The position numbers were made by a program, and so were the translations under genes. Under the pieces are notes generated by a model, which had not been told where the DNA came from, ran no database searches, and saw nothing but the letters and a program-made list of their open reading frames with translations. A DNA stretch of 64,000 nt from Methylotenera sp. (GTDB lineage Bacteria > Pseudomonadota > Gammaproteobacteria > Burkholderiales > Methylophilaceae): contig NZ_JAQSCU010000013.1 in the NCBI RefSeq assembly GCF_029945535.1, positions 63,522-127,521 of the forward strand. Direction: 5' to 3'. This document shows, piece after piece, positions 28,947 to 44,494 of this stretch (its first letter is position 1; each line of letters begins with the position of its first letter).

Positions 28947-29651
28947 CTAGCTATTCGCGTCTGCTTCCATCTGTTCAATTGTAGTGTGGCGTACGTCTTT
29001 ACCTTTTACCATGTAAACAACATATTCAGAGATGTTTTTTGCGTGATCGCCGATGCGTTCAATCGCTTTGGAGACAAATAACACTTCTAGTGACATTGAA
29101 ATAGTACGTGGGTCTTCGAGCATAAATGTAATCAGTTGACGAATAGTCATTTGGTACTGACCATCCACTTGCTCATCCATTTGCGCAATCGGTAAAACTT
29201 TTGTAGCATCTGAGCGCGCGAATGCATCGAGTGACATGTGCAACATTTCACGCGTTAGATTAGCCATAGTTTTGATTTCTGCAAAACGTGGCGTCCACAT
29301 GCGGTCAGTTTCGCTTGATTTTAATGCTAGACGTGCAACTTTTGCAGCTTCATCACCAATACGCTCTAAGTCTGTAATGGTTTTAATCATCATCAGTACC
29401 ATGCGTAAATCTCCAGCAGCAGGCTGGCGCAAGGCAATAATATGGCTGCAATCTTCGTCAATTTGTACTTCAAGCGCGTTAACTTGGTGGTCGTTATTAA
29501 TGACTCGTTTAGCTAGCTTGGCGTTTGATGTGGTTAATGCCTCCAAAGCATCAACAATCTGCTGCTCAACTAGTGATCCCATTTCAAGTACTTTGGCACG
29601 TACTGATTCTAATTCTGAGTCGTACTGTTTGTAGATATGTTCAGATACCAT
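28947..29651 (-). CDS. phoU: Phosphate signalling regulator PhoU
   Basis: A 234-residue all-helical PhoU with two repeats of the three-helix bundle. The metal-binding EXXXDXXXD-like patterns are seen as DLERIGDEAAKVARL and AIERIGDHAKNISEY. PhoU links PstSCAB to the PhoR/PhoB sensor system and damps phosphate uptake. The ATG at 29651 is chosen over the GTG one codon upstream because AAGGA lies seven bases before it. It is last in pstSCAB-phoU, 91 bases after pstB. Confidence 0.94.
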   Translation of the reverse strand: MVSEHIYKQYDSELESVRAKVLEMGSLVEQQIVDALEALTTSNAKLAKRVINNDHQVNALEVQIDEDCSHIIALRQPAAGDLRMVLMMIKTITDLERIGDEAAKVARLALKSSETDRMWTPRFAEIKTMANLTREMLHMSLDAFARSDATKVLPIAQMDEQVDGQYQMTIRQLITFMLEDPRTISMSLEVLFVSKAIERIGDHAKNISEYVVYMVKGKDVRHTTIEQMEADANS

Positions 29652-29742
29652 CACTTATTCCTTTAAAAACCTTGCTCGATAAAACATATTAAAAATATCA
29701 TTGGTTTGGCAACTTATAACTAAACAAATGAGCGACTAAAAA

Positions 29743-30525
29743 TTAGCCGAATTTACCTGTGATGTAATCTTCTGTTTCTTTACGGCTAGGGCGCGTAAAA
29801 ATCGTATTGGTTTGATCAAACTCCATCAGCTCGCCCAAGTACATATATGCGGTGTAATCTGACACACGTGCCGCTTGTTGCATATTATGCGTCACGATAA
29901 CGATGGTGTACTCTTTTTTCAACTCATGAATTAAGTCTTCAATACGCGCTGTAGAAATTGGGTCTAGCGCAGAACATGGTTCATCAAGCAACAATACATT
30001 TGGTTTTACAGCTACGCCACGGGCAATGCACAAGCGCTGTTGTTGACCACCAGATAGACCAGAGCCACTTTGATGAAGTTTGTCTTTTACTTCATTCCAA
30101 ATGGCGGCTTTTTGCAGCGCCCATTCAACACGGTCATTCATCTCGGATTTTGATAAATTCTCGTAAAGCTTCACACCAAAGGCCACGTTGTCATAAATAG
30201 ACATTGGGAATGGTGTCGGTTTCTGAAAAACCATACCAACTTTTGCGCGTAGTAAATTCAAATCTTGTTCGGCTGAGTGAATATCTTTGCCATCAAGCAA
30301 GATTTTTCCTTCCACACGCTGCTTAGGATAAAGCTCATACATACGGTTAAAGGTACGTAGCAAGGTTGATTTTCCGCAGCCAGATGGGCCAATAAAAGCG
30401 GTTACTTGGCTTGCTGGAATATCAATATTGATATCTTTAAGCGCATGAAATTTACCGTAGTAGAAATTCATGTTTTTGGCTGAGATCTTCGCTTGAAGCG
30501 ATTGCGTTGACATGCTCGTGGACAT
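29743..30525 (-). CDS. pstB: Phosphate ABC transporter ATP-binding protein PstB
   Basis: A 260-residue ABC ATPase of the high-affinity phosphate importer. Walker A is GPSGCGKS, the signature is [14 protein letters not shown], Walker B is [13 protein letters not shown], and the switch His is in [27 protein letters not shown] and YITGKFG at the ends are PstB hallmarks. It lies 17 bases after pstA. The ATG at 30525 is used; a second ATG four codons later lacks a ribosome-binding site. Confidence 0.96.
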
Positions 30526-30542
30526 ATTTAAGTAATCCTAAA

Positions 30543-31400
30543 CTAACTGTGAGATTGATTTTGACGAAACACCGTGCGAGCCAAGATATTAAGGCCAAGC
30601 ACGAATAAGGTAATGAGTAATGCGCCAGCCCATGCAAGGTGCTGCCAGTCTTCATATGGACTCATTGCGAATTGGAAAATCACAACCGCTAAACTTGAAA
30701 TTGGTTGGTTCATATCAGTGCTCCAGAACTGATTATTCAACGCAGTGAATAATAGCGGTGCGGTTTCGCCGCTGATGCGAGCAACTGCAAGTAGTAGCCC
30801 TGTTAAAATCCCAGTCCTTGCTGATTTGTAAACGACATTCACAATGACTTTCCAGTAAGGCGCACCAAGTGCTGCTGCAGCTTCACGCAGTGTACTAGGC
30901 ACTAATGACATCATGTTTTCTGTAGTACGCACTACAACAGGTACCACCAATAGTGATAAGGCGAATGAGCCAGCCCAACCAGAGAAGTGGTTAACACTAT
31001 GTACGGCTACTTCATACACAAATAGGCCGATGACGATTGATGGTGCTGATAACAAGATGTCGTTAATGAATCTAGTTGTTGGTGCTAACCAGCCTGATTT
31101 TCCGTATTCTGAAAGATAGGTTCCCGCTAATATACCTACAGGTGTACCGATGACGGTAGCAAAAAACACCATATATAAACTACCAACGATGGCATTTAAC
31201 AAACCACCTGAGCTGCCAGGCGGTGGCGTCATTTTGGTAAATACATCCAGCGTTAAGTAGCTAAAACCTTGGCTGAACAATGTCCATAAAATCCATATTA
31301 AGAATGTAAGTGCGAAGATGACAGTGCCAACAGATAAGCTGAGTGTGAGTCCGTTGACAAATTTACGACGCATGTAGCGCTTGTTATCAAGGCCTTTCAT
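30543..31400 (-). CDS. pstA: Phosphate ABC transporter permease PstA
   Basis: A 285-residue inner-membrane permease with six predicted spans and the cytoplasmic coupling loop with [16 protein letters not shown] (EAA motif). [20 protein letters not shown] and [15 protein letters not shown]-like wording are typical of PstA. It pairs with PstC to form the phosphate channel energised by PstB. Its ATG overlaps the pstC stop by four bases (ATGA), so the two permeases are translationally coupled. Confidence 0.95.
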
Positions 31401-32416
31401 GACTGTTTCCCTTCACGCAGTGATAAGCGTATCAATAACAATTTAGCCAGTGACAGCACAATAAATGTGATCACAAATAATGTTAAACCTAGTGTAATGA
31501 GTGATGAGGTGTAAATATCACCAACTGCTTCAGTGAACTCGTTCGCTAACGCAGATGAAATCGTATTACCTGGCATCATGAGTGAGGCGGAGAGTTCGTG
31601 GGCATTACCAATGACAAATGTCACCGCCATTGTTTCACCAAGCGCTCTACCTAAACCAAGCATGACGCCACCAACCACACCAATTTTAGTATAGGGAAGT
31701 ACCACGTTCCAAATAACTTCCCAAGTGGTGGAACCTAGTCCATAGGCAGACTCTTTAAGCATACTAGGCACAATTTCGAACACATCCCTCATGACTGAAG
31801 CTGTATATGGAATCACCATAATAGCGAGAATAAAGCCTGCGGTGAACATACCAATACCCATAGGTGGGCCTTGAAATAAAGCGCCGATTAAAGGTAGGGC
31901 ACCAAGGTTATCGTTCATCCAAGGTTGCACGTGGTCAGCAAACAAAGGTGCGAACACAAACAAACCCCACATACCATAAATAATACTTGGAATACCTGCT
32001 AGTAGTTCAATCGCTACGCCAATCGGGCGTTTAAGCCAATTAGGAGAGAGTTCTGTGATGAATATAGCAATACCAAAGCTCACTGGAATGCCGATGAGCA
32101 TGGCAATTAAAGCGGTGATAAACGTGCCGTAAATAGGCACCACACCACCAAAGTCAATTGTGACTGGATTCCATGCGGTACTTGTGAAAAAAGATGCACC
32201 GAACATCTTTAATGCCGGCAGGCTACCCACTAACAAGGTAATAATAATGCCAAACAGTAAGATGAAAACTAGAAAAGCAAAAAACATGGTGGTGTAGCGA
32301 AACAGCTTATCTAGCGTCGCTCCGATGTTCTTATTTTGTGGACTATTCGGCATTGAAATTGATTCTCGAATGATGTTTTGTTCATTTAAAACTGCTGAAG
32401 GGGCGTACGTATCCAT
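31397..32416 (-). CDS. pstC: Phosphate ABC transporter permease PstC
   Basis: A 339-residue permease with a first span near residues 45-70, further spans downstream, and the EAA loop [22 protein letters not shown]. The [18 protein letters not shown] segment is a PstC signature. The frame is open for 23 codons further upstream, but ATG at 32416 has AAGGA about nine bases before it and gives a normal N-terminus, so it is preferred. It precedes pstA with a 4-base overlap and follows pstS by about 100 bases. Confidence 0.93.
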
Positions 32417-32519
32417 CTTTATATTTCCTTCAGCAGAGTTTAAGTTGATATTGTTGGCAGGCGGAATTAATATTCCACCTGCCAACTTTAGTGACTACTT
32501 TTAATTATTATCTTTAAAA

Positions 32520-33569
32520 CTATTTAGTCCAAACTGCAGCGCCATCTTTGCTTTTGATGTTTGTTTTCCAGCTAGTTTCAATCAATTTTACAACGTTGTC
32601 AGGCATAGGTACGTAGTCCAAACCTTTTGCCATCAAAGCACCATTAGTGTAGCTCCAATCAAAGAACTTAAGCACTTCAGCGCCATTAAGTGGTTTATCT
32701 TGTATTTTGTGCATTAAGATGAAGCTAGCGCCAGTAATAGGCCATGTTGCTTTGCCTGGTTCGTTAGTAAGAATTTCGTAAAAGCCAGGTGCTTTTTCCC
32801 ACTCAGCGTATTTAGCAGCAGATTGGAAACTTTCGATACTTGGTTTAGTGAACTCACCATCACGGTTTTGCAAGCTTACTGTAGGTAAATTGTTTTGTTT
32901 AGCGAAGGCATATTCAACATAACCAATTGAACCTTTAATACGTTGTGCGTATGAAGCAACACCTTCGTTGCCTTTACCACCTAAACCAGTTGGCCAAGCA
33001 ACTGAAGTATCAGCACCTACTTTATCGCTCCACTCTTTACTAACTTTGCTTAAATAGTTAGTAAATACAAAAGATGTACCTGAACCATCAGAGCGATGCA
33101 CTACAGTAATCGCTGTATCTGGTAATGCTAAGCTTGGGTTAAGTGCTTTAATTGCTGGGTCATTCCATTTAACGATTTTTTTCAAGTAAATGTTAGCAAG
33201 TACTTCACCGTTTAGGCGCATTTCGCCATCAGTAACGCCAGGTACATTTACTACAGGAACTACACCACCAACAACCGCTGGGAATTGCACTAAGCCCGCT
33301 TTTTCTAGCTCTTCAGGTTTTAATGGTTTATCAGAAGCGCCAAAATCTACTGTTTTGTTAGTGATTTGTTTAATACCACCGCCAGAACCGATAGATTGGT
33401 AATTTAATTTAACGCCAGTTTTAACATTGTATGACTCAGCCCATTTTGCATAAATTGGGTATGGGAAAGTAGCACCAGCACCAGTAATGTCAATTGCGAA
33501 TGCGCTAGGGGCGATGATAAGACCCGCTGCTAAAAGAGCTGCCTTAAGATTAAAGTTGCTAACTTGCAT
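32520..33569 (-). CDS. pstS: Periplasmic phosphate-binding protein PstS
   Basis: A 349-residue substrate-binding protein with a signal peptide ending around residue 25 (SAFA-ID). Phosphate-binding loops are visible in GAGATFPYPIYAKWAE, NYQSIGSGGGIKQI, DFGASDKP and HRSDGSGTSFVF. It captures periplasmic phosphate and hands it to PstCA. The ATG follows a strong AGGAG. It is first in its operon, and a PHO-box-like repeat with a -10 lies 45-80 bases upstream. Confidence 0.96.
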   Translation of the reverse strand: MQVSNFNLKAALLAAGLIIAPSAFAIDITGAGATFPYPIYAKWAESYNVKTGVKLNYQSIGSGGGIKQITNKTVDFGASDKPLKPEELEKAGLVQFPAVVGGVVPVVNVPGVTDGEMRLNGEVLANIYLKKIVKWNDPAIKALNPSLALPDTAITVVHRSDGSGTSFVFTNYLSKVSKEWSDKVGADTSVAWPTGLGGKGNEGVASYAQRIKGSIGYVEYAFAKQNNLPTVSLQNRDGEFTKPSIESFQSAAKYAEWEKAPGFYEILTNEPGKATWPITGASFILMHKIQDKPLNGAEVLKFFDWSYTNGALMAKGLDYVPMPDNVVKLIETSWKTNIKSKDGAAVWTK

Positions 33570-33613: not shown

Positions 33614-33647
33614 ATTCTAGAAATCAAATATGACAATTTAATGACAA
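33614..33647 (-). promoter_or_regulatory. PHO box and -10 of the pst operon
   Basis: On the minus strand, TTGTCAT-TAAA-TTGTCAT (33647-33630) matches the PhoB direct-repeat layout of two 7-mers with an 11-base period (consensus half CTGTCAT). Exactly ten bases later is TAGAAT (33619-33614), the expected -10 position for a PhoB-activated promoter. The pstS ATG follows 44 bases downstream. Confidence 0.82.
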
Positions 33648-37794: not shown

Positions 37795-38899
37795 ATGGAA
37801 GCCGAACAACTCAATATCATCGCTAATCGTCTAATCGACTTAGGCGAGCGCAACAACGACCTTAGGGGGTATCTTTGACTTTGAGACTAAGTCTCAGCGT
37901 CTAGAAGAAGTTAATGGCTTGTTGGAAGACCCGAAAGTTTGGGATGACAACAAAAAAAGCCAAGCATTAGGTAAAGAAAAGCGTGCATTAGAGCTTGTCG
38001 TGCACAGTCTACAGGCAGTTGAAAGCAGTTTAAACGATAGTCGCGAGCTATTTGAAATGGCGCGTGAAGAAAACGATGATGACACTTTATTAAGTGTAGA
38101 TGTCGATTCACAAGCGGTAGAAAAACAGGTCGCTGAGATGGAATTCCGCCGTATGTTTTCTGGCGAGTTAGATCCAAATAACTGTTTTATCGAATTTCAA
38201 TCGGGCAGTGGTGGTACAGAAGCGCAAGATTGGGCGGCTATGCTGCTCCGTATGTATCTACGTTATTGCGAACGCAAAGGCTTTAAAGTTGAAGTGCTAG
38301 AAGAGTCTGATGGCGATGTAGCAGGCATCAAAGGCGCATCGATTAAGGTGACTGGTGACTATGCTTACGGCACTTTAAGAACAGAAAATGGTGTGCATCG
38401 CTTGGTGCGTAAATCACCGTTTGATAGCAACGCCAAACGCCACACTTCATTTGCCAGCGTTCAGATTTTCCCTGAAGTCGATGATTCAATTCAAATTGAT
38501 ATTAACCCAGCTGACTTGCGTATCGACACTTATCGCGCCAGTGGGGCGGGTGGTCAGCATATTAACAAGACTGATTCTGCGGTGCGTATTACCCATCTTC
38601 CTACTAATACTGTGGTGCAGTGTCAGAATGACCGCTCACAACATCGCAATCGCGATGAAGCGATGAATATGCTTAAGGGCGCGTTGTATAACCTAGAACT
38701 AAACAAGCGCAATGCAGACAAACAAGCGCTTGAAGATGCTAAAACCGATATTGGTTGGGGGCATCAAATCAGGTCTTATGTGTTAGACCAAGGCCGCATT
38801 AAAGATTTACGTACCAATGTAGAAATTGGTAATACGCAAGGCGTGCTTGATGGCGACCTTGACCCATTTATACAAGTCAGTTTGAAGCAGGGAGTTTAA
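37795..38899 (+). CDS. prfB: Peptide chain release factor 2, with programmed +1 frameshift
   Basis: RF2 recognises UAA and UGA and releases the peptide. Translation begins at ATG 37795 (MEAEQLN), runs 27 codons and meets TGA at 37876-37878 in AGGGGGTATCTTTGAC. There the ribosome shifts +1 on CTT and continues in the frame beginning GAC at 37877, giving a 367-residue protein. The SD-like AGGGGG and CTT TGA C are the classic autoregulatory site. Downstream, the SPF peptide anticodon (RKSPFDS) and the catalytic GGQ loop ([10 protein letters not shown]) are intact. lysS follows two bases after the stop. Confidence 0.96.
37864..37879 (+). promoter_or_regulatory. prfB programmed frameshift site
   Basis: AGGGGG (SD-like stimulator), TAT, CTT slippery codon, in-frame TGA, then C. 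Low RF2 slows termination at UGA and allows +1 shifting, so RF2 regulates itself. Confidence 0.95.
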
Positions 38900-38901
38900 G
38901 A

Positions 38902-40446
38902 ATGAGCAGCCAAGAGAATAACCAGCAAAATAATGAAGTAGTCGCCGTAGACGAAAACCACGTGATTGCAGAGCGTCGTGAGAAGCTAAAGTCCATTCGT
39001 GAAGCCACAGGTGGCGTAGCGTTTCCTAACGATTTTAAGCCGCAACATAAAGCAGCTGATTTAATCGCAGCCTATGCAAATCAAGAAAATGAGGCATTTG
39101 AAGCTACACCAGTTAACGTTGTAGTGGCTGGTCGTATGATGTTGAAGCGTGTGATGGGTAAGGCTAGCTTTGCAACCATACAAGATGGTAGCGGCGCAAA
39201 TGCAGGCAGCCGTATTCAGCTTTATGTCGCCAAAGACATGATCAGCGAGGAAGTCTATGAGCAATTTAAACATTGGGATTTGGGTGACTTTTTAGGTGCA
39301 ACGGGCCATTTATTTAAAACTAAAACTGGTGAGCTTTCAATCAAAGTCACTGAAATCCGTTTGCTGACAAAATCTTTACGCCCGTTGCCAGAGAAGTTCC
39401 ACGGTTTGCAAGATCAAGAAGTTAAATATCGTCAACGTTACGTAGATTTAATTACTAGCGAAGAAACACGTGCGACTTTTGTTGCACGTAGCAAAGTCGT
39501 TTCTGCGATTCGTAATTTTATGATTCAAAATGAATTTTTAGAAGTTGAAACGCCGATGTTACACCCGATTCCGGGTGGTGCTTCAGCTAAGCCATTCATT
39601 ACGCATCACAATGCTTTAGATATGCAAATGTACATGCGTATCGCCCCAGAGTTATATTTGAAACGCCTAGTTGTTGGCGGTTTTGAGCGTGTGTTTGAAG
39701 TGAATCGTAACTTCCGTAACGAAGGCTTGAGCGTTCGTCATAATCCAGAATTCACCATGATGGAATTTTATGCGGCTTATACTGATTACCAATGGTTGAT
39801 GGACTTTACTGAAAACTGTATTCGTACCGCAGCCATCGCAGCACGCGGCACTGCAGTGCTGGAATACCAAGGTCGTGAGCTAGATTTAAGCAAGCCATTC
39901 CAACGCTTAACGATTGTTGGCGCTATTCAAAAATACGCACCACAATACACGCTTGAGCAGTTAAACGACGAAGCTTTCTTGCGTGCTGAAATCCTTAAAC
40001 ATGGTACAAAACCTTTTGATCACGCTGGTTTAGGCGCATTGCAATTGGCATTGTTTGAAGAAACTGCTGAAAGCCAATTGTGGGAGCCAACTTATATCAT
40101 CGACTACCCAGTTGAAGTTTCACCATTGGCGCGTGCCTCAGACAAAAATCCAGAAATCACCGAGCGCTTTGAATTGTTTGTGACTGGTCGCGAAATTGCA
40201 AACGGGTTCAGCGAGTTGAACGATGCGGAAGACCAAGCCGCACGCTTCCATGCGCAAATGAAAGCCAAAGAAGCGGGTGACCATGAGGCAATGTTCTATG
40301 ATGCGGACTTTATTCGTGCTTTGGAATACGGCATGCCACCAGCAGGCGGTTGCGGTATCGGTATTGATCGCTTAGTCATGATGATTACCGACAGTGCAAG
40401 TATCCGTGATGTAATTTTGTTCCCGCACATGCGCGCTGAATCTTAA
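38902..40446 (+). CDS. lysS: Lysyl-tRNA synthetase, class II
   Basis: A 514-residue class II synthetase. The N-terminal OB-fold anticodon-binding domain (about 65-170) contains [22 protein letters not shown]. Motif 1 is in the FLEVETPML region, motif 2 is [22 protein letters not shown], and motif 3 is [17 protein letters not shown] at the C-terminus. It charges tRNA-Lys. It begins two bases after prfB with a GGGAG ribosome-binding site, the conserved prfB-lysS pair. A terminator follows. Confidence 0.97.
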
Positions 40447-40586: not shown

Positions 40587-41960
40587 ATGTCAAAACATCT
40601 TCAATTAGGTTTGTTAGCAGCTTTGTTGCTCGTTAACGTTGGCAGCACATTAAGGGCACAAGAATCTGCTCAATTTGATTGGTCTTCACTACCTACAAAG
40701 CCAAACGCTAATAAGCATGCAAGTGTTTTGGCTACTTTCCAACTGCCAGACACTGATATATCTACGCTGAATCCTAATATTGATTTAGGCGACAATGCTC
40801 AAGCAGTTAAGAACGGTTACCCCAATCGCCATATTCCTGGTATTGGTTCAGCGATTGTTGCTATACCGAATAAACCAGGTGAGTTTTACATGTTAACGGA
40901 CAGGGGTCCGAATTTTGACCATACTAATTGGCTCGGTAGCATGAATGGTAAGACTTTTCCATTACCTAAATTCACTCCAGCAATCGTGCATGTAAAGCTC
41001 ACTCAAGGCAAAGGTGCAATTGGGCGGATTGAAGTGATTCGTGCCATCCCGATTGTTGATAGCAAAGGTAAACCAGTGACTGGTTTAAGCAATCATGAAG
41101 TTGATGAGCAACCATACTCAGGCAAGTCAAACTCACCATTGAGTTATCACCCCGCGGGCTTAGATACCGAAGCTTTGCAACTTTTACCTGACGGTAACTT
41201 TTTAGTCTCAGAGGAATACGGGCCTAGTATTGCAGTCATTGACACGAGCGGTCACGTGCTGATGCGCTATGTGCCTATTGGCAAGACCTATGATGGTGTA
41301 AATTACCCTGTCAAAGAAATATTGCCATCAATCTATAAGGAGCGACGTGGTAACCACGGCTTTGAAAATGTCAGTGTCACGCCAGACGGCAAAACCGCTT
41401 ACGCAACCCTGCAAAGCCCGATGGGAAACGAAAACAAGAAAGCATATAAAAAAAGTCGGTTGGTTAGAATCTTGCGCTTAGATATTACAAAGCCTACAGA
41501 TGCAAAAGTCACTGGGATGTTTGTAGTATTGCAAAGCGATAAATCAGCCTATCCAAAAACAGATAAGCAAAAAGATCTGAAATACTCCGATGCTGTAGCA
41601 ATTTCGCAAGATAAGCTTTTGTTACTAGAACGCGCGACCAATAAAGTGAAGTTAATCGAGGCTGATTTAAGCCTAGCAACCAATATCCTTACACATATAG
41701 ATATGAATACTTTGCTATTTGAGAAGGAGGGCGAAAAGTTAGGTAAGCTCACTATTACACCCGCTAGCACAAGAGAAGTATTCGATAGCCACGATGTGCG
41801 TTCAAAAATTGATACTGATAAGCTGGAAGGTTTAGCGGTTTTATCGTCCAATGTTGTGGTGCTAAGTAATGATAACGATTTTGGCGTAGGTGAAAATACC
41901 AATAATTACCCTAGTAAAGCATGGGTCGTGCGTTTAGGTAAAAGCCTACTTATACCTTAA
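40587..41960 (+). CDS. Exported esterase-like activity of phytase family protein
   Basis: A 457-residue exported protein with a signal peptide (about 1-24, ending TLRA) and a beta-propeller-like body of the phytase-like esterase family (PF13449). Marker segments are FYMLTDRGPNFDHTNW, GLDTEALQLLPDGNFLVSEEYGPSIAVI, HGFENVSVTPDGKTAYATLQSP and DKLEGLAVLSSNVVVLSNDNDFGV. Members are thought to hydrolyse phosphate esters or related substrates in the periplasm or outside. It sits 5 kb from the Pit genes and just before a PHO-box porin, but no PHO box was found in its own leader. A REP-like element follows. The exact substrate is unknown. Confidence 0.82.
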   Translation: MSKHLQLGLLAALLLVNVGSTLRAQESAQFDWSSLPTKPNANKHASVLATFQLPDTDISTLNPNIDLGDNAQAVKNGYPNRHIPGIGSAIVAIPNKPGEFYMLTDRGPNFDHTNWLGSMNGKTFPLPKFTPAIVHVKLTQGKGAIGRIEVIRAIPIVDSKGKPVTGLSNHEVDEQPYSGKSNSPLSYHPAGLDTEALQLLPDGNFLVSEEYGPSIAVIDTSGHVLMRYVPIGKTYDGVNYPVKEILPSIYKERRGNHGFENVSVTPDGKTAYATLQSPMGNENKKAYKKSRLVRILRLDITKPTDAKVTGMFVVLQSDKSAYPKTDKQKDLKYSDAVAISQDKLLLLERATNKVKLIEADLSLATNILTHIDMNTLLFEKEGEKLGKLTITPASTREVFDSHDVRSKIDTDKLEGLAVLSSNVVVLSNDNDFGVGENTNNYPSKAWVVRLGKSLLIP

Positions 41961-42072
41961 TGTAGGAGCGGCTTGCAGCCGCGAACAACCCAAGAGTAAA
42001 CTCTAAGGCGATGTTTGACCATCTACTCTCTGACCCACGCTGGAGCATTCGGGGCTGCAAGCCCCTCCTACT
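41961..42072. repeat. REP/BIME-like inverted pair, TGTAGGAGC family
   Basis: TGTAGGAGCGGCTTGCAGCC (41961-41980) begins an element whose inverted counterpart GGGGCTGCAAGCCCCTCCTA (42051-42070) ends it. About 70 unrelated bases lie between. Each arm has its own inner palindrome (GGCTTGCAGCC and GGGGCTGCAAGCCCC). It shares the TGTAGGAGC head with 23437-23504 and resembles REP sequences of Pseudomonas. Confidence 0.75.
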
Positions 42073-42168
42073 AAAGCTAAACAACGCCCGCTAAAGTAAT
42101 TTAGTAGGCGTTGTTTATTGTTGTAAGCATGCAACAATGCTGTTGCTAATTACCCAGCGATTAGTTCT

Positions 42169-42186
42169 TTGTCATCAAATTGTCAT
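42169..42186 (+). promoter_or_regulatory. PHO box upstream of the porin
   Basis: TTGTCAT-CAAA-TTGTCAT is two identical 7-mers with an 11-base period, differing from the pstS box only in one spacer base. It lies 68 bases before the porin ATG. The -10 ten bases downstream is poor (CAAACT). Confidence 0.75.
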
Positions 42187-42254
42187 AAAAAAATAACAAA
42201 CTGCTCGTGTTGAAAAAATACATTGATGCAGTTAATTTTATGAGGAGATTTTTG

Positions 42255-43727
42255 ATGAATTTTAAATTACGTAACATGGTAGCCGCAACGCTAGCAGGTT
42301 CAGTTTTAATGGGCTTTGGCACAAGTGCAATGGCTGACTCTACATTTGATTTAGTACAAGCTTTAGTTGCTAAAGGCGTATTGACAGAGGAAGAAGCATT
42401 ACCATTGTTGAAAGGTCGTGAAAATGACATTCAAGTAGCAGATAAAAAAGTTAAAAAAGCAGCTAAATTGGGCATGGCAGATGCTATTGATAACGCTACT
42501 TTATATGGCGATATTCGCGTTCGATATGAAGATCGTCAAGGTACAGGCGCAACAACTGGCGCAGATGTTGATGAGACAAGAGAGCGAGCGCGCTATAAGT
42601 TGACACTTGGTGTTAAAACTGAATCTGGTGATTGGTATACAGACTTAGCGTTAGCGATGGGCGCAAATGGGCGCTCAGACAATGCTACGTTTGGTAAATC
42701 TGCTACTACAAATATTAATGATAAAGAAACAGTGTTTGTTAAACGCGCCATGGTTGGTTACAAAGCTACTGATTGGTTAGCGATTGAAGCGGGTCGTATG
42801 AATAACCCACTATATACAACACCTATGGTATGGGACGCTGACTTGAACTTTGAAGGTTTAGCTGAAAAAGTAAATTACAAGATGAACTTTGCAGATTTAT
42901 TCTTCACTGCAGCTCAAGCACAATATCAAGGTGATAGAAAAGACTTTAGTACTACAGGTGATACTATTACTACTGAACTATTTGCATTCCAAGGTGGTGG
43001 TCGCTATCTATTTAATGACACAACATCAGCCAAAGCTGCTTTAACTTACACTAAATACAGCCACAACACTAGCAATACATCATTTAAACCAGGAACTGGT
43101 ACTGACGGTGCGGGTGCTGCTACGGTGCCAGGTACAGTTAATGCTGCAGGTACAGCTTTTGTTCCTGCTGTTGCCGCAAAACCAGGTTATGCAATTGCTG
43201 CTTCTGGTGTAAATGATTTAGATACGATAGAAATTCCAGCTGAAGTTAACTTCATGGCTAACAGCAGTATTGGTGTTCGTTTATTTGGCGATTATGTATA
43301 CAACACTAACGCTGATGACCGTGCAAAGCATTCAGGGTTAGCTGCAGCAGCTAACGGTTCAGACGGTAGTGATGATACTGCATGGATGTTGGGTGTAGCT
43401 GTTGGTTCAGCTAATGACTTTAAATCGTTTGAAGCTAATAAAATGGTCAAAGGTGATTGGTCTGCACGTATTTGGTACCAAGACGTTGGTGTTTGGTCAG
43501 TTGACCCAAATGCCGTTGATTCAGACTTCATGGACTCACGCGTTAACATGAAAGGTACTATCTTAAAGACACAATATAACTTCACAGATAATGTTTATGC
43601 TAACTTTGCATACGGCCACGCAACACGTAAAAATAACACTTACGGCGCTGCTGGTGCTGCACAAGACTTAGCTTTAAACTTAAAAGATTTTGATTTAGTT
43701 CAATTAGATCTAACATACAAATTCTAA
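42255..43727 (+). CDS. Outer-membrane porin, probably phosphate-starvation induced
   Basis: A 490-residue outer-membrane beta-barrel of the putative-porin family. The signal peptide ends at Ala27 (SAMA-D). A short helical segment (FDLVQALVAKGVLTEEEALPLL) and a Lys-rich linker precede the barrel, which begins ATLYGDIRVRYEDR and ends in a C-terminal Phe (DLTYKF), the BAM targeting signal. The frame is open 16 codons further upstream, but ATG at 42255 has GAGGAG seven bases before it. A Gly/Ala/Pro-rich loop lies near residues 285-320. The PHO box suggests anion or phosphate uptake under starvation. Confidence 0.88.
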   Translation: MNFKLRNMVAATLAGSVLMGFGTSAMADSTFDLVQALVAKGVLTEEEALPLLKGRENDIQVADKKVKKAAKLGMADAIDNATLYGDIRVRYEDRQGTGATTGADVDETRERARYKLTLGVKTESGDWYTDLALAMGANGRSDNATFGKSATTNINDKETVFVKRAMVGYKATDWLAIEAGRMNNPLYTTPMVWDADLNFEGLAEKVNYKMNFADLFFTAAQAQYQGDRKDFSTTGDTITTELFAFQGGGRYLFNDTTSAKAALTYTKYSHNTSNTSFKPGTGTDGAGAATVPGTVNAAGTAFVPAVAAKPGYAIAASGVNDLDTIEIPAEVNFMANSSIGVRLFGDYVYNTNADDRAKHSGLAAAANGSDGSDDTAWMLGVAVGSANDFKSFEANKMVKGDWSARIWYQDVGVWSVDPNAVDSDFMDSRVNMKGTILKTQYNFTDNVYANFAYGHATRKNNTYGAAGAAQDLALNLKDFDLVQLDLTYKF

Positions 43728-43855: not shown

Positions 43856-44494
43856 ATGTACCAACACCCGTTACTTAATCGCGATAAGATGTCTCCACAA
43901 GAGGCTTTGGATATTTTGATTGAAGGTAATCATCGCTTTACTCATAACCAAACTTCAAAAAAAGATTACCAGTCTTTAATTGAAATTACGAAAGATAAGC
44001 AACATCCATTTACTTCATTTTTAAGTTGCAGTGACTCTCGCGCACCTGTGGAATTATTGTTTGATCAAGCTTTGGGTGATGTGTTTAGTGTGCGTTTGGC
44101 GGGTAATATTGCTTCAGATAAAGGGATTGGTAGCTTAGAGTTCGCAAGTAAATATTTAGGTTCTAAACTAATTGTGGTGCTTGGCCATACGAGTTGCGGC
44201 GCGATAAAAGCGGCTTGCGATAATTTCAGGGAAGGCCATATTGGCGAGATTATTAATCATATTCGTCCAGCTGTTCGTCAAGAGAAAACGGTGCTGGAGT
44301 CGCGTGATTCAAGTAATGAAGATTTTGTAGCTAAAGTATGTGCGCAGAATGTTAGAGTGCAAATTAAGCAAATTTTGCATAGCAGCGACATTATTGAAGA
44401 TATGCTCAACGAGAAGAAAATAGGCTTGATTGGCGCTGTTTACGATATATCTACAGGCCAAGTTAACTTTCTAGAAGAAACCTTAAAACTCTAA
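43856..44494 (+). CDS. Beta-class carbonic anhydrase
   Basis: A 212-residue zinc enzyme interconverting CO2 and bicarbonate. Zinc ligands are visible as Cys58 with the Asp60/Arg62 dyad in SCSDSRAP, and His111 and Cys114 in GHTSCGAIKAA. Length is typical of bacterial beta-CAs. No signal peptide is seen, so it is cytoplasmic, where it would supply bicarbonate to carboxylases such as CarAB and fatty-acid synthesis. It starts at ATG after AAAGG. It is convergent with the isc operon. Confidence 0.92.
   Translation: MYQHPLLNRDKMSPQEALDILIEGNHRFTHNQTSKKDYQSLIEITKDKQHPFTSFLSCSDSRAPVELLFDQALGDVFSVRLAGNIASDKGIGSLEFASKYLGSKLIVVLGHTSCGAIKAACDNFREGHIGEIINHIRPAVRQEKTVLESRDSSNEDFVAKVCAQNVRVQIKQILHSSDIIEDMLNEKKIGLIGAVYDISTGQVNFLEETLKL

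Follow-up and report, generated by a model that had tools for sequence, protein, structure and literature searches.

PhoE of Escherichia coli is a trimeric porin controlled by PhoB, and OprP and OprO (PF07396, Porin_O_P) are porins of Pseudomonas aeruginosa, OprP being under Pho control. The gene considered here is a porin gene of Methylotenera sp., a freshwater bacterium living on methanol; it lies at 42255-43727 on the + strand of a 64,000-nucleotide (nt) stretch of contig NZ_JAQSCU010000013.1 (positions 63,522 to 127,521; hereafter, the window), encodes 490 amino acids (aa), and occupies a conserved slot downstream of prfB-lysS. The slot porin is very probably the family's PhoB-activated porin aiding phosphate entry, with its promoter and leader forming a fixed module, the barrel being exchangeable, and recombination occurring inside the leader. 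The proposed role is that of OprP and OprO, and the barrel in the same slot is of their family in 47 of 73 proteins; the window barrel, in contrast, is assigned to PF16930 (Porin_5; 101.2 bits against a cut-off of 22) and is not a sequence member of Porin_O_P, the barrel profiles of the two families failing to align. PhoE is alike in the PhoB control proposed here, but belongs to another family, and we do not know of it as an exchangeable slot. The solved fold closest to the predicted barrel is that of OmpM1 of Veillonella parvula, at 17% identity; OmpM tethers through an SLH domain, whereas the slot porin has a short helical leader.

Two further systems are alike in single traits. Lambdoid phage PA-2 reportedly encodes the porin Lc/NmpC, a phage-carried porin as found here, and the Neisseria porB locus is said to undergo allele replacement; in neither case do we know of a conserved promoter and leader joined to unrelated barrels, or of integration in a leader. 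Cyanophages share with the present case a phage-borne pstS, and several of their genes are under host PhoBR control (PMC10976474), whereas here pstS and porin stand head-to-tail on putative methylotroph phages; the word "porin" is absent from the main text of that source.

The box upstream of the porin, TTGTCAT-CAAA-TTGTCAT, ends 68 nt before the ATG at 42255 (Table 1) and matches the genome's own pstS box. An earlier note on this DNA had called the two nearly identical and equal in their 7-4-7 layout, and they turn out to be the only exact TTGTCATN4TTGTCAT sites in the genome (3,006,219 bases, 19 contigs). The same scan gives one site with one mismatch and 48 sites with two, that is, 51 sites with up to two mismatches against 21 for the reversed control pattern. 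Matches with up to three mismatches within the window are at chance level (12 against 10.5 expected), hence the box call rests on the exactness of the match. The genome encodes PhoB (TIGR02154, 346.6 bits against a cut-off of 296.2), with an open reading frame (ORF) resembling a histidine kinase by eye after it; phoB is itself preceded by a box with two mismatches and a -10 element ten nt downstream (TTGTCATTAATCTGTCAC-N10-TAAACT).

Genome-wide ranking with a PhoB matrix, which the earlier note had proposed, places the porin third, after pstS and phoB. Here, the matrix was built from 17 pstS promoters of the genus, and a sequence-only covariance model from 16 distinct ones; the top three sites of this pstS-only model in the own genome are pstS (31.4 bits), phoB (25.2), and the slot porin (18.5; E value 0.008), the fourth-ranked site having an E value of 0.06. 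The pstS site is itself in the training set, and 150 of 2,332 first-look candidates were scored.

Relatives are represented by the best 80 of 111 loci from a scan of named genomes, mostly Methylophilaceae by title, the rest being unresolved Proteobacteria. Orthologous promoters without the box would, according to the earlier note, have spoken against its prediction: the box scores above the 99% level of dinucleotide shuffles (8.9, pstS-only matrix) in 73 of 76 scorable slot upstream regions, and above the 99.9% level (18.2) in 49. This count leaves out L078, L095, L154, and L155 for want of an ATG start; the misses are L092, L099 (a leaderless copy behind an integrase), and L107. With corrected starts (GTG in L107, where the box then appears, and TTG in L154 and L155), the box is found in 76 of 78 slot loci. 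In all 73 box-bearing loci, the -10 starts exactly 10 nt after the box, its second base always being A and its sixth T; its forms are mainly CAAAAT (48/73) and CAGAAT (15/73), and the window has the rarer CAAACT, in agreement with the caveat of the earlier note that the -10 at the expected distance is weak. The box occurs under all barrel types (22 Porin_5, 47 Porin_O_P, two Porin_4, and two unknown barrels among these 73 loci), and six Porin_5 paralogues outside the slot, one of them from the own genome, have no upstream site with fewer than four mismatches, their scores not exceeding 4.6 against the threshold of 8.9. The prediction of PhoB-type control is strengthened by this conservation in the slot, its lack in paralogues, and the genome rank.

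The slot lies downstream of prfB-lysS, often with pst genes near; among the 80 loci, lysS was detected in 67 and prfB in 54, some loci being too short to contain them. The 73 slot proteins (72 from relatives and that of the window) comprise 24 Porin_5 and 47 Porin_O_P, while those of L105 and L106 match neither family; the barrel from genome G176, 62% identical to that of L106, matches Porin_4 (E value 2e-13). The Porin_O_P barrel profile matches the solved structures of Porin O and Porin P (4rjw, 2o4v) at E values of about 1e-51. Full-length profiles of the two main types align with a probability of 99.9%; the barrel-only profiles do not align (0.5%), hence the full-length score rests on the leader. 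The leader is present in 45 of 52 genus genomes, and in 33 of the 34 with a completeness of 90% or more and a contamination of 5% or less. It is usually single-copy, with one copy in the own genome; in the three genus genomes with extra matches, these go with split contigs, a single weak match, or a contamination of 6%.

The distribution of barrels, as read from the sequences, shows repeated replacement behind a promoter and leader that stay in place downstream of lysS. On the lysS tree (64 rows; L131 was dropped as having no barrel, L108 was left out, and L112 was labelled Porin_5 from L078, the other contig of its assembly), 15 switches between Porin_5 and Porin_O_P are counted, and the starred branches force at least 10-11. 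Shuffled labels require 19.0 changes for Porin_O_P (12 of 500 shuffles as low as observed) and 17.9 for Porin_5 (95 of 500), so that barrel type follows the lysS tree weakly. Named strains within each of Methylotenera, Methylophilus, Methylovorus, and Methylobacillus carry both types; an assembly artefact is thus unlikely to account for the exchange by itself. The stretch that runs from 2 kb upstream to within the leader is 90% identical in the pair L081/L115 and 93% in L085/L106; there is no match over the barrel, and identity returns, at 87-92%, 21-72 nt after the stop codon. Base-level comparison places the change points of these two pairs at porin nt 90 (84-91) and nt 125 (120-125), respectively, where BLAST had put the left end of homology at nt 167-169. 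For five more diverged pairs, the change point is not placeable (L089/L110, WIN/L122, L087/L139; WIN denotes the window) or lies near the gene start (L096/L110, L079/L118). Among eight control pairs with the same barrel, none has a supported change in nt 83-126; the interval of WIN/L077, a wide one (nt 15-96), extends into this segment. No second leader or barrel remnant was seen around the slot in 76 masked loci and in the window (30001-55000); a second barrel match in L103 was rejected as a remnant, being the C-terminal part of one and the same gene, which a stretch of N interrupts.

In loci L095 and L099, which belong to one genus, a tyrosine integrase (Phage_integrase; 75% identity between the two) stands directly before a Porin_5 gene lacking the signal peptide and the start. 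G176, the genome of L099, has on a separate contig pst-prfB-lysS-box-leader-Porin_4, with the frame open to the contig end, and an exact 44-nt repeat, porin nt 83-126, is common to both junctions (L245, L210), the sequences differing on either side. The right-hand contig carries the integrase, the leaderless Porin_5, and then the genes that follow the slot in relatives where it is uninterrupted. Thus, a tyrosine integrase, a direct repeat at both ends, and an interrupted target gene are all present, with the ends on separate contigs; the simplest reading of these sequences is an insertion in leader codons 28-42, by which the promoter and signal peptide gained a new barrel and the old one was left silent. 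The left breakpoints of the two best-resolved other exchanges (nt 84-91 and 120-125) fall within the segment repeated in G176. The picture is more complex in G177, where an ORF with the leader ends after about 75 codons and a second box, a leader, and a barrel with 68% identity to the L106 barrel come next; both insertions are known from draft assemblies split over contigs. The G176 chimera gave one weak plasmid match (28.6% identity, Cupriavidus). Related integrases (52-65% identity) occur elsewhere, and neither a leader nor a slot barrel was found in the 14 further stretches examined; in the own genome, there is no integrase near the porin, and the two integrase relatives listed (of three) are outside the window.

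The slot leader is also found on IMG/VR contigs, with 14 loci in one search and 11 in another, the sets overlapping and including several near copies. In L254, pstS ends 9 nt before the leader and Porin_5 gene, and in L256, L257, and L265, pstS precedes the leader and a Porin_O_P gene. In 10 of 13 viral loci, the start of pstS or porin has before it a PHO-like box and a -10 spaced by 10 nt, a score not reached in 200 shuffles of each; no such box was seen in L257, L258, and L261 (L267 is outside the 13 tested). Prediction of Pho boxes in phage genomes is described as unreliable in PMC10976474, and this applies to the viral boxes given here. The nearest host barrels are 51-72% identical to the viral ones. 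Neighbouring genes include matches to exonuclease and homing-endonuclease phage families together with host-like genes, and matches to a head-maturation protease that may come from a Clp-type protease; a terminase is present in four of 11 viral records, while the search for the Gp23 capsid protein was uninformative, with no match in the viral records and none in controls either. Judging from the classing of the collection and the gene content, these contigs are likely phages of methylotrophs. The slot integrase has no pattern match in the viral contigs, and the viral porin of L256 has no match in 50,697 GenBank phage records.

Other observations on the viral contigs concern their gene content. 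By eye, the porin of L259-L264 starts with a signal peptide resembling the one on viral PstS, fused to the mature porin leader; such an arrangement would fit the loss of pstS from an operon of pstS and porin. Leader-porin contigs (L257 2139-4001; L256 1924-3207) also carry a PQQ-domain protein that resembles methanol dehydrogenase by eye, as well as S-adenosylhomocysteine hydrolase and peroxiredoxin, possible auxiliary genes of methylotroph phages.

The following mechanism is proposed. At low phosphate, PhoR would phosphorylate PhoB, which would bind the 7-4-7 box and help RNA polymerase to use the weak -10 fixed 10 nt downstream; the porin would then admit more phosphate, or small phosphorylated anions, to periplasmic PstS. 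The promoter and leader would act as a fixed module after lysS, with the barrel exchangeable from three Pfam families, the window having the Porin_5 version. Exchange would proceed by recombination inside the leader (codons 28-42 where placeable) and shortly after the stop codon; insertion of a tyrosine integrase in the leader appears to have accompanied it at least once, and putative viral contigs hold further copies. As a general mechanism, integrase-driven exchange is partly supported and may be proposed. A bolder, speculative version sees the leader as a dedicated docking site, where elements or phages would fuse barrels in frame via codons 28-42, swapping phosphate gate and phage receptor at once under retained PhoB control; large methylotroph phages with a spare pstS-porin operon under its own PHO box would then form a barrel reservoir. 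This extension seems to us less likely than not.

The protein itself was modelled with AlphaFold2 from 24 sequences (mean predicted local distance difference test score, pLDDT, of 72), giving 16 long strands. It has no NCBIfam match, and no PF07396 match at E value 0.001; searching solved structures with the Porin_5 profile gave no match at E values up to 1, and likewise none for L106. At Arg94, Arg140, Lys163, Arg429, and Lys438, a basic residue is kept by 23-24 of 24 slot Porin_5 proteins but by none of the six paralogues; Arg88, Arg90, Arg111, Arg113, and Arg164 are shared by slot Porin_5 proteins and paralogues. Together with the net charge given below, this sequence pattern would neither establish nor rule out phosphate selectivity.

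Several results weigh against a PhoB-activated phosphate porin with an exchangeable barrel. The best fold match of the predicted barrel is OmpM1 (8bym, Z 27.1 over 289 residues; other families may also fit) and not OprO, whose mutant chain 4rjx scores Z 20.9, among general porins near 20-21. The barrel contains 38 Lys and Arg against 49 Asp and Glu, unexpected for a pore with strong anion selectivity. Among 1,520 shuffled upstream regions, the highest score was 21.8, with only 49 of 76 real ones above 18.2, and in Methylobacillus rhizosphaerae (L092) the box is degenerate, none being clear. The slot integrase is found in only two of 80 loci, and that of G176 has an internal stop in its frame. 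Finally, in a study of the OM43 strain NB0046 (PMC5120137), pst and porin transcripts are lowest in the nutrient-deplete regime and pst rises on phosphorus addition, so the pattern is not a simple starvation response. On the supporting side, transcripts of "phosphate-selective porins O and P" in that study amount to 76, 109, 163, and 183 per 1,000 cells over four regimes, moving alongside those of the phosphate-binding protein gene (40, 83, 119, and 162); these are nutrient regimes and not a phosphate-starvation experiment, and the porin there is a Porin_O_P that may or may not stand in this slot.

A chance match without function is barely conceivable as the origin of the box: loose matches in the window do occur at chance level, but the two exact sites in the genome, the fixed -10 spacing, the conservation in the family, and the pstS-model rank led us to reject it. 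Divergence of one barrel family past recognition, with no exchange, is very improbable, although all the proteins are outer-membrane barrels and the full-length profiles align at 99.9%; the barrel-only profiles do not, pairs that differ in barrel have flanks about 90% identical, and named strains of four genera carry both types. Considerably more plausible is a porin controlled by PhoB yet not specific for phosphate, being a general porin induced by phosphate stress for organophosphates, nucleotides, or anions at large, or a substitute for a phage-receptor porin. Porin_5 is a family with no assigned substrate, the barrel is net acidic and closest in fold to OmpM1, and the acceptance of three barrel families in the slot, including the general Porin_4, suggests loose selectivity; the pairing of leader-porin with pstS on viral contigs, the OprP/OprO family of 47 of 73 slot proteins, and the five basic residues specific to slot Porin_5 proteins favour phosphate instead. 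On balance, we consider a non-specific porin a real possibility, though not the expected outcome.

As to how the barrels are exchanged, ordinary homologous recombination between relatives via conserved flanks, with selection by phages or substrates and an incidental integrase, has nearly an even chance of being the explanation. Conservation along the proteins is highest in the leader, hence homologous crossovers would end there too; no second leader or barrel remnant was seen around the slot in the masked loci or the window, the slot integrase was found in only two of 80 loci, and in five of seven pairs the change point is unplaced or elsewhere in the leader. Both pairs with close flanks, however, change within the segment repeated in G176, and G176 itself has the repeat, an in-frame chimera, and intact flanks.

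Published work already names the slot gene, as oprP or "porins O and P" (PMC11978286, PMC5120137): in groundwater Methylotenera, a figure legend shows oprP with pst, ars, prfB, and lysRS (PMC11978286). Barrel exchange, an integrase in the leader, and the phage pstS-porin pair are not mentioned in the titles and abstract openings searched, most subscription journals being outside the scope of the search.

Table 1. Positions of the porin, its predicted regulatory elements, and neighbouring genes in the window.
Feature	Positions	Strand	Remarks
PHO box, TTGTCATCAAATTGTCAT	42169-42186	+	7-4-7 direct repeat; sequence, genome scan, matrix
-10 element, CAAACT	42197-42202	+	Exactly 10 nt after the box; weak
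Ribosome-binding site, GAGGAG	42242-42247	+	Sequence
Conserved leader, aa 1-76	42255-42482	+	Signal peptide and periplasmic helical segment DSTFDLVQALVAKGVLTEEEAL
Segment equivalent to the G176 44-nt repeat	42337-42380	+	Porin nt 83-126, codons 28-42; no insertion here
Beta-barrel, aa 80-490, and stop	42492-43727	+	Porin_5 (PF16930); 16 long predicted strands
pstS PHO box, TTGTCATTAAATTGTCAT	33630-33647	-	-10 TAGAAT 10 nt downstream
16-nt inverted repeat, GTTGTAAGCATGCAAC	42120-42135	.	Starts 49 nt before the PHO box; candidate second regulator site
pst operon	28947-33569	-	pstS 32520-33569, permeases 31397-32485 and 30543-31400, ATPase 29743-30525, phoU 28947-29654
prfB and lysS	37919-40446	+	Conserved left flank of the slot
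Beta-carbonic anhydrase	43856-44494	+	Common right flank, detected in 29/80 loci

Upstream of the PHO box, a GTTG-N6..10-CAAC repeat occurs within 110 nt in 50 of 76 slot loci and in 0.6% of mononucleotide shuffles. It stands 37-38 nt from the box in 19 loci and 46-49 nt from it in 29, two spacings that differ by about one helical turn. The palindrome GTTGYA-N4-TRCAAC is found at two places in the own genome, before the slot porin and at G000:C6:184634-184649 (L279 2035-2050); the second site precedes a porin-like gene (L279 2264-3487), a porin by eye and with no Pfam match. The palindrome recurs ahead of the Porin_4-like gene in viral L257 and L259, and, judging by sequence, it is possibly a site for some porin regulator. 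A REP-like (repetitive extragenic palindromic) inverted repeat, GTAGGAGCGGCTTGCAGCCGCGAAC ... GGGGCTGCAAGCCCCTCCTAC, lies at 41962-42071 between the phytase-like gene and the porin promoter, and similar sequence is seen upstream of the L279 porin (L279 about 1880-2025), beside a small ORF resembling a REP-associated transposase by eye. The 5' untranslated region contains a GTTGAAAAA-like element (42209-42217); 25 of 76 slot loci have one no more than 70 nt from the start.

The pst operon next to the slot occurs in two very different versions, with PstS 51-95% or 22-27% identical to that of the window. The phytase-like PF13449 gene (40587-41960), directly upstream of the porin, adjoins the slot in only three of 80 other loci and, in the window scan, has no PHO box within three mismatches upstream. 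The prfB ORF (37919-38899) starts at profile position 31 of release factor 2 (RF2), presumably as the first part is read through the RF2 frameshift.

The locus offers a substrate hypothesis for a Porin_5 protein that is testable in cultured isolates. The main new finding, beyond the earlier note, is barrel exchange behind a fixed Pho promoter and leader: a regulated, usually single-copy surface gene keeps its promoter and N-terminus constant as unrelated barrels replace one another behind them. One species carries an integrase footprint, and viral contigs hold copies beside pstS. This opens tests of whether phages or phosphate affinity drive the exchange of an outer-membrane gate, and of whether a gene's own leader may serve as a docking site for replacing the rest of the protein.

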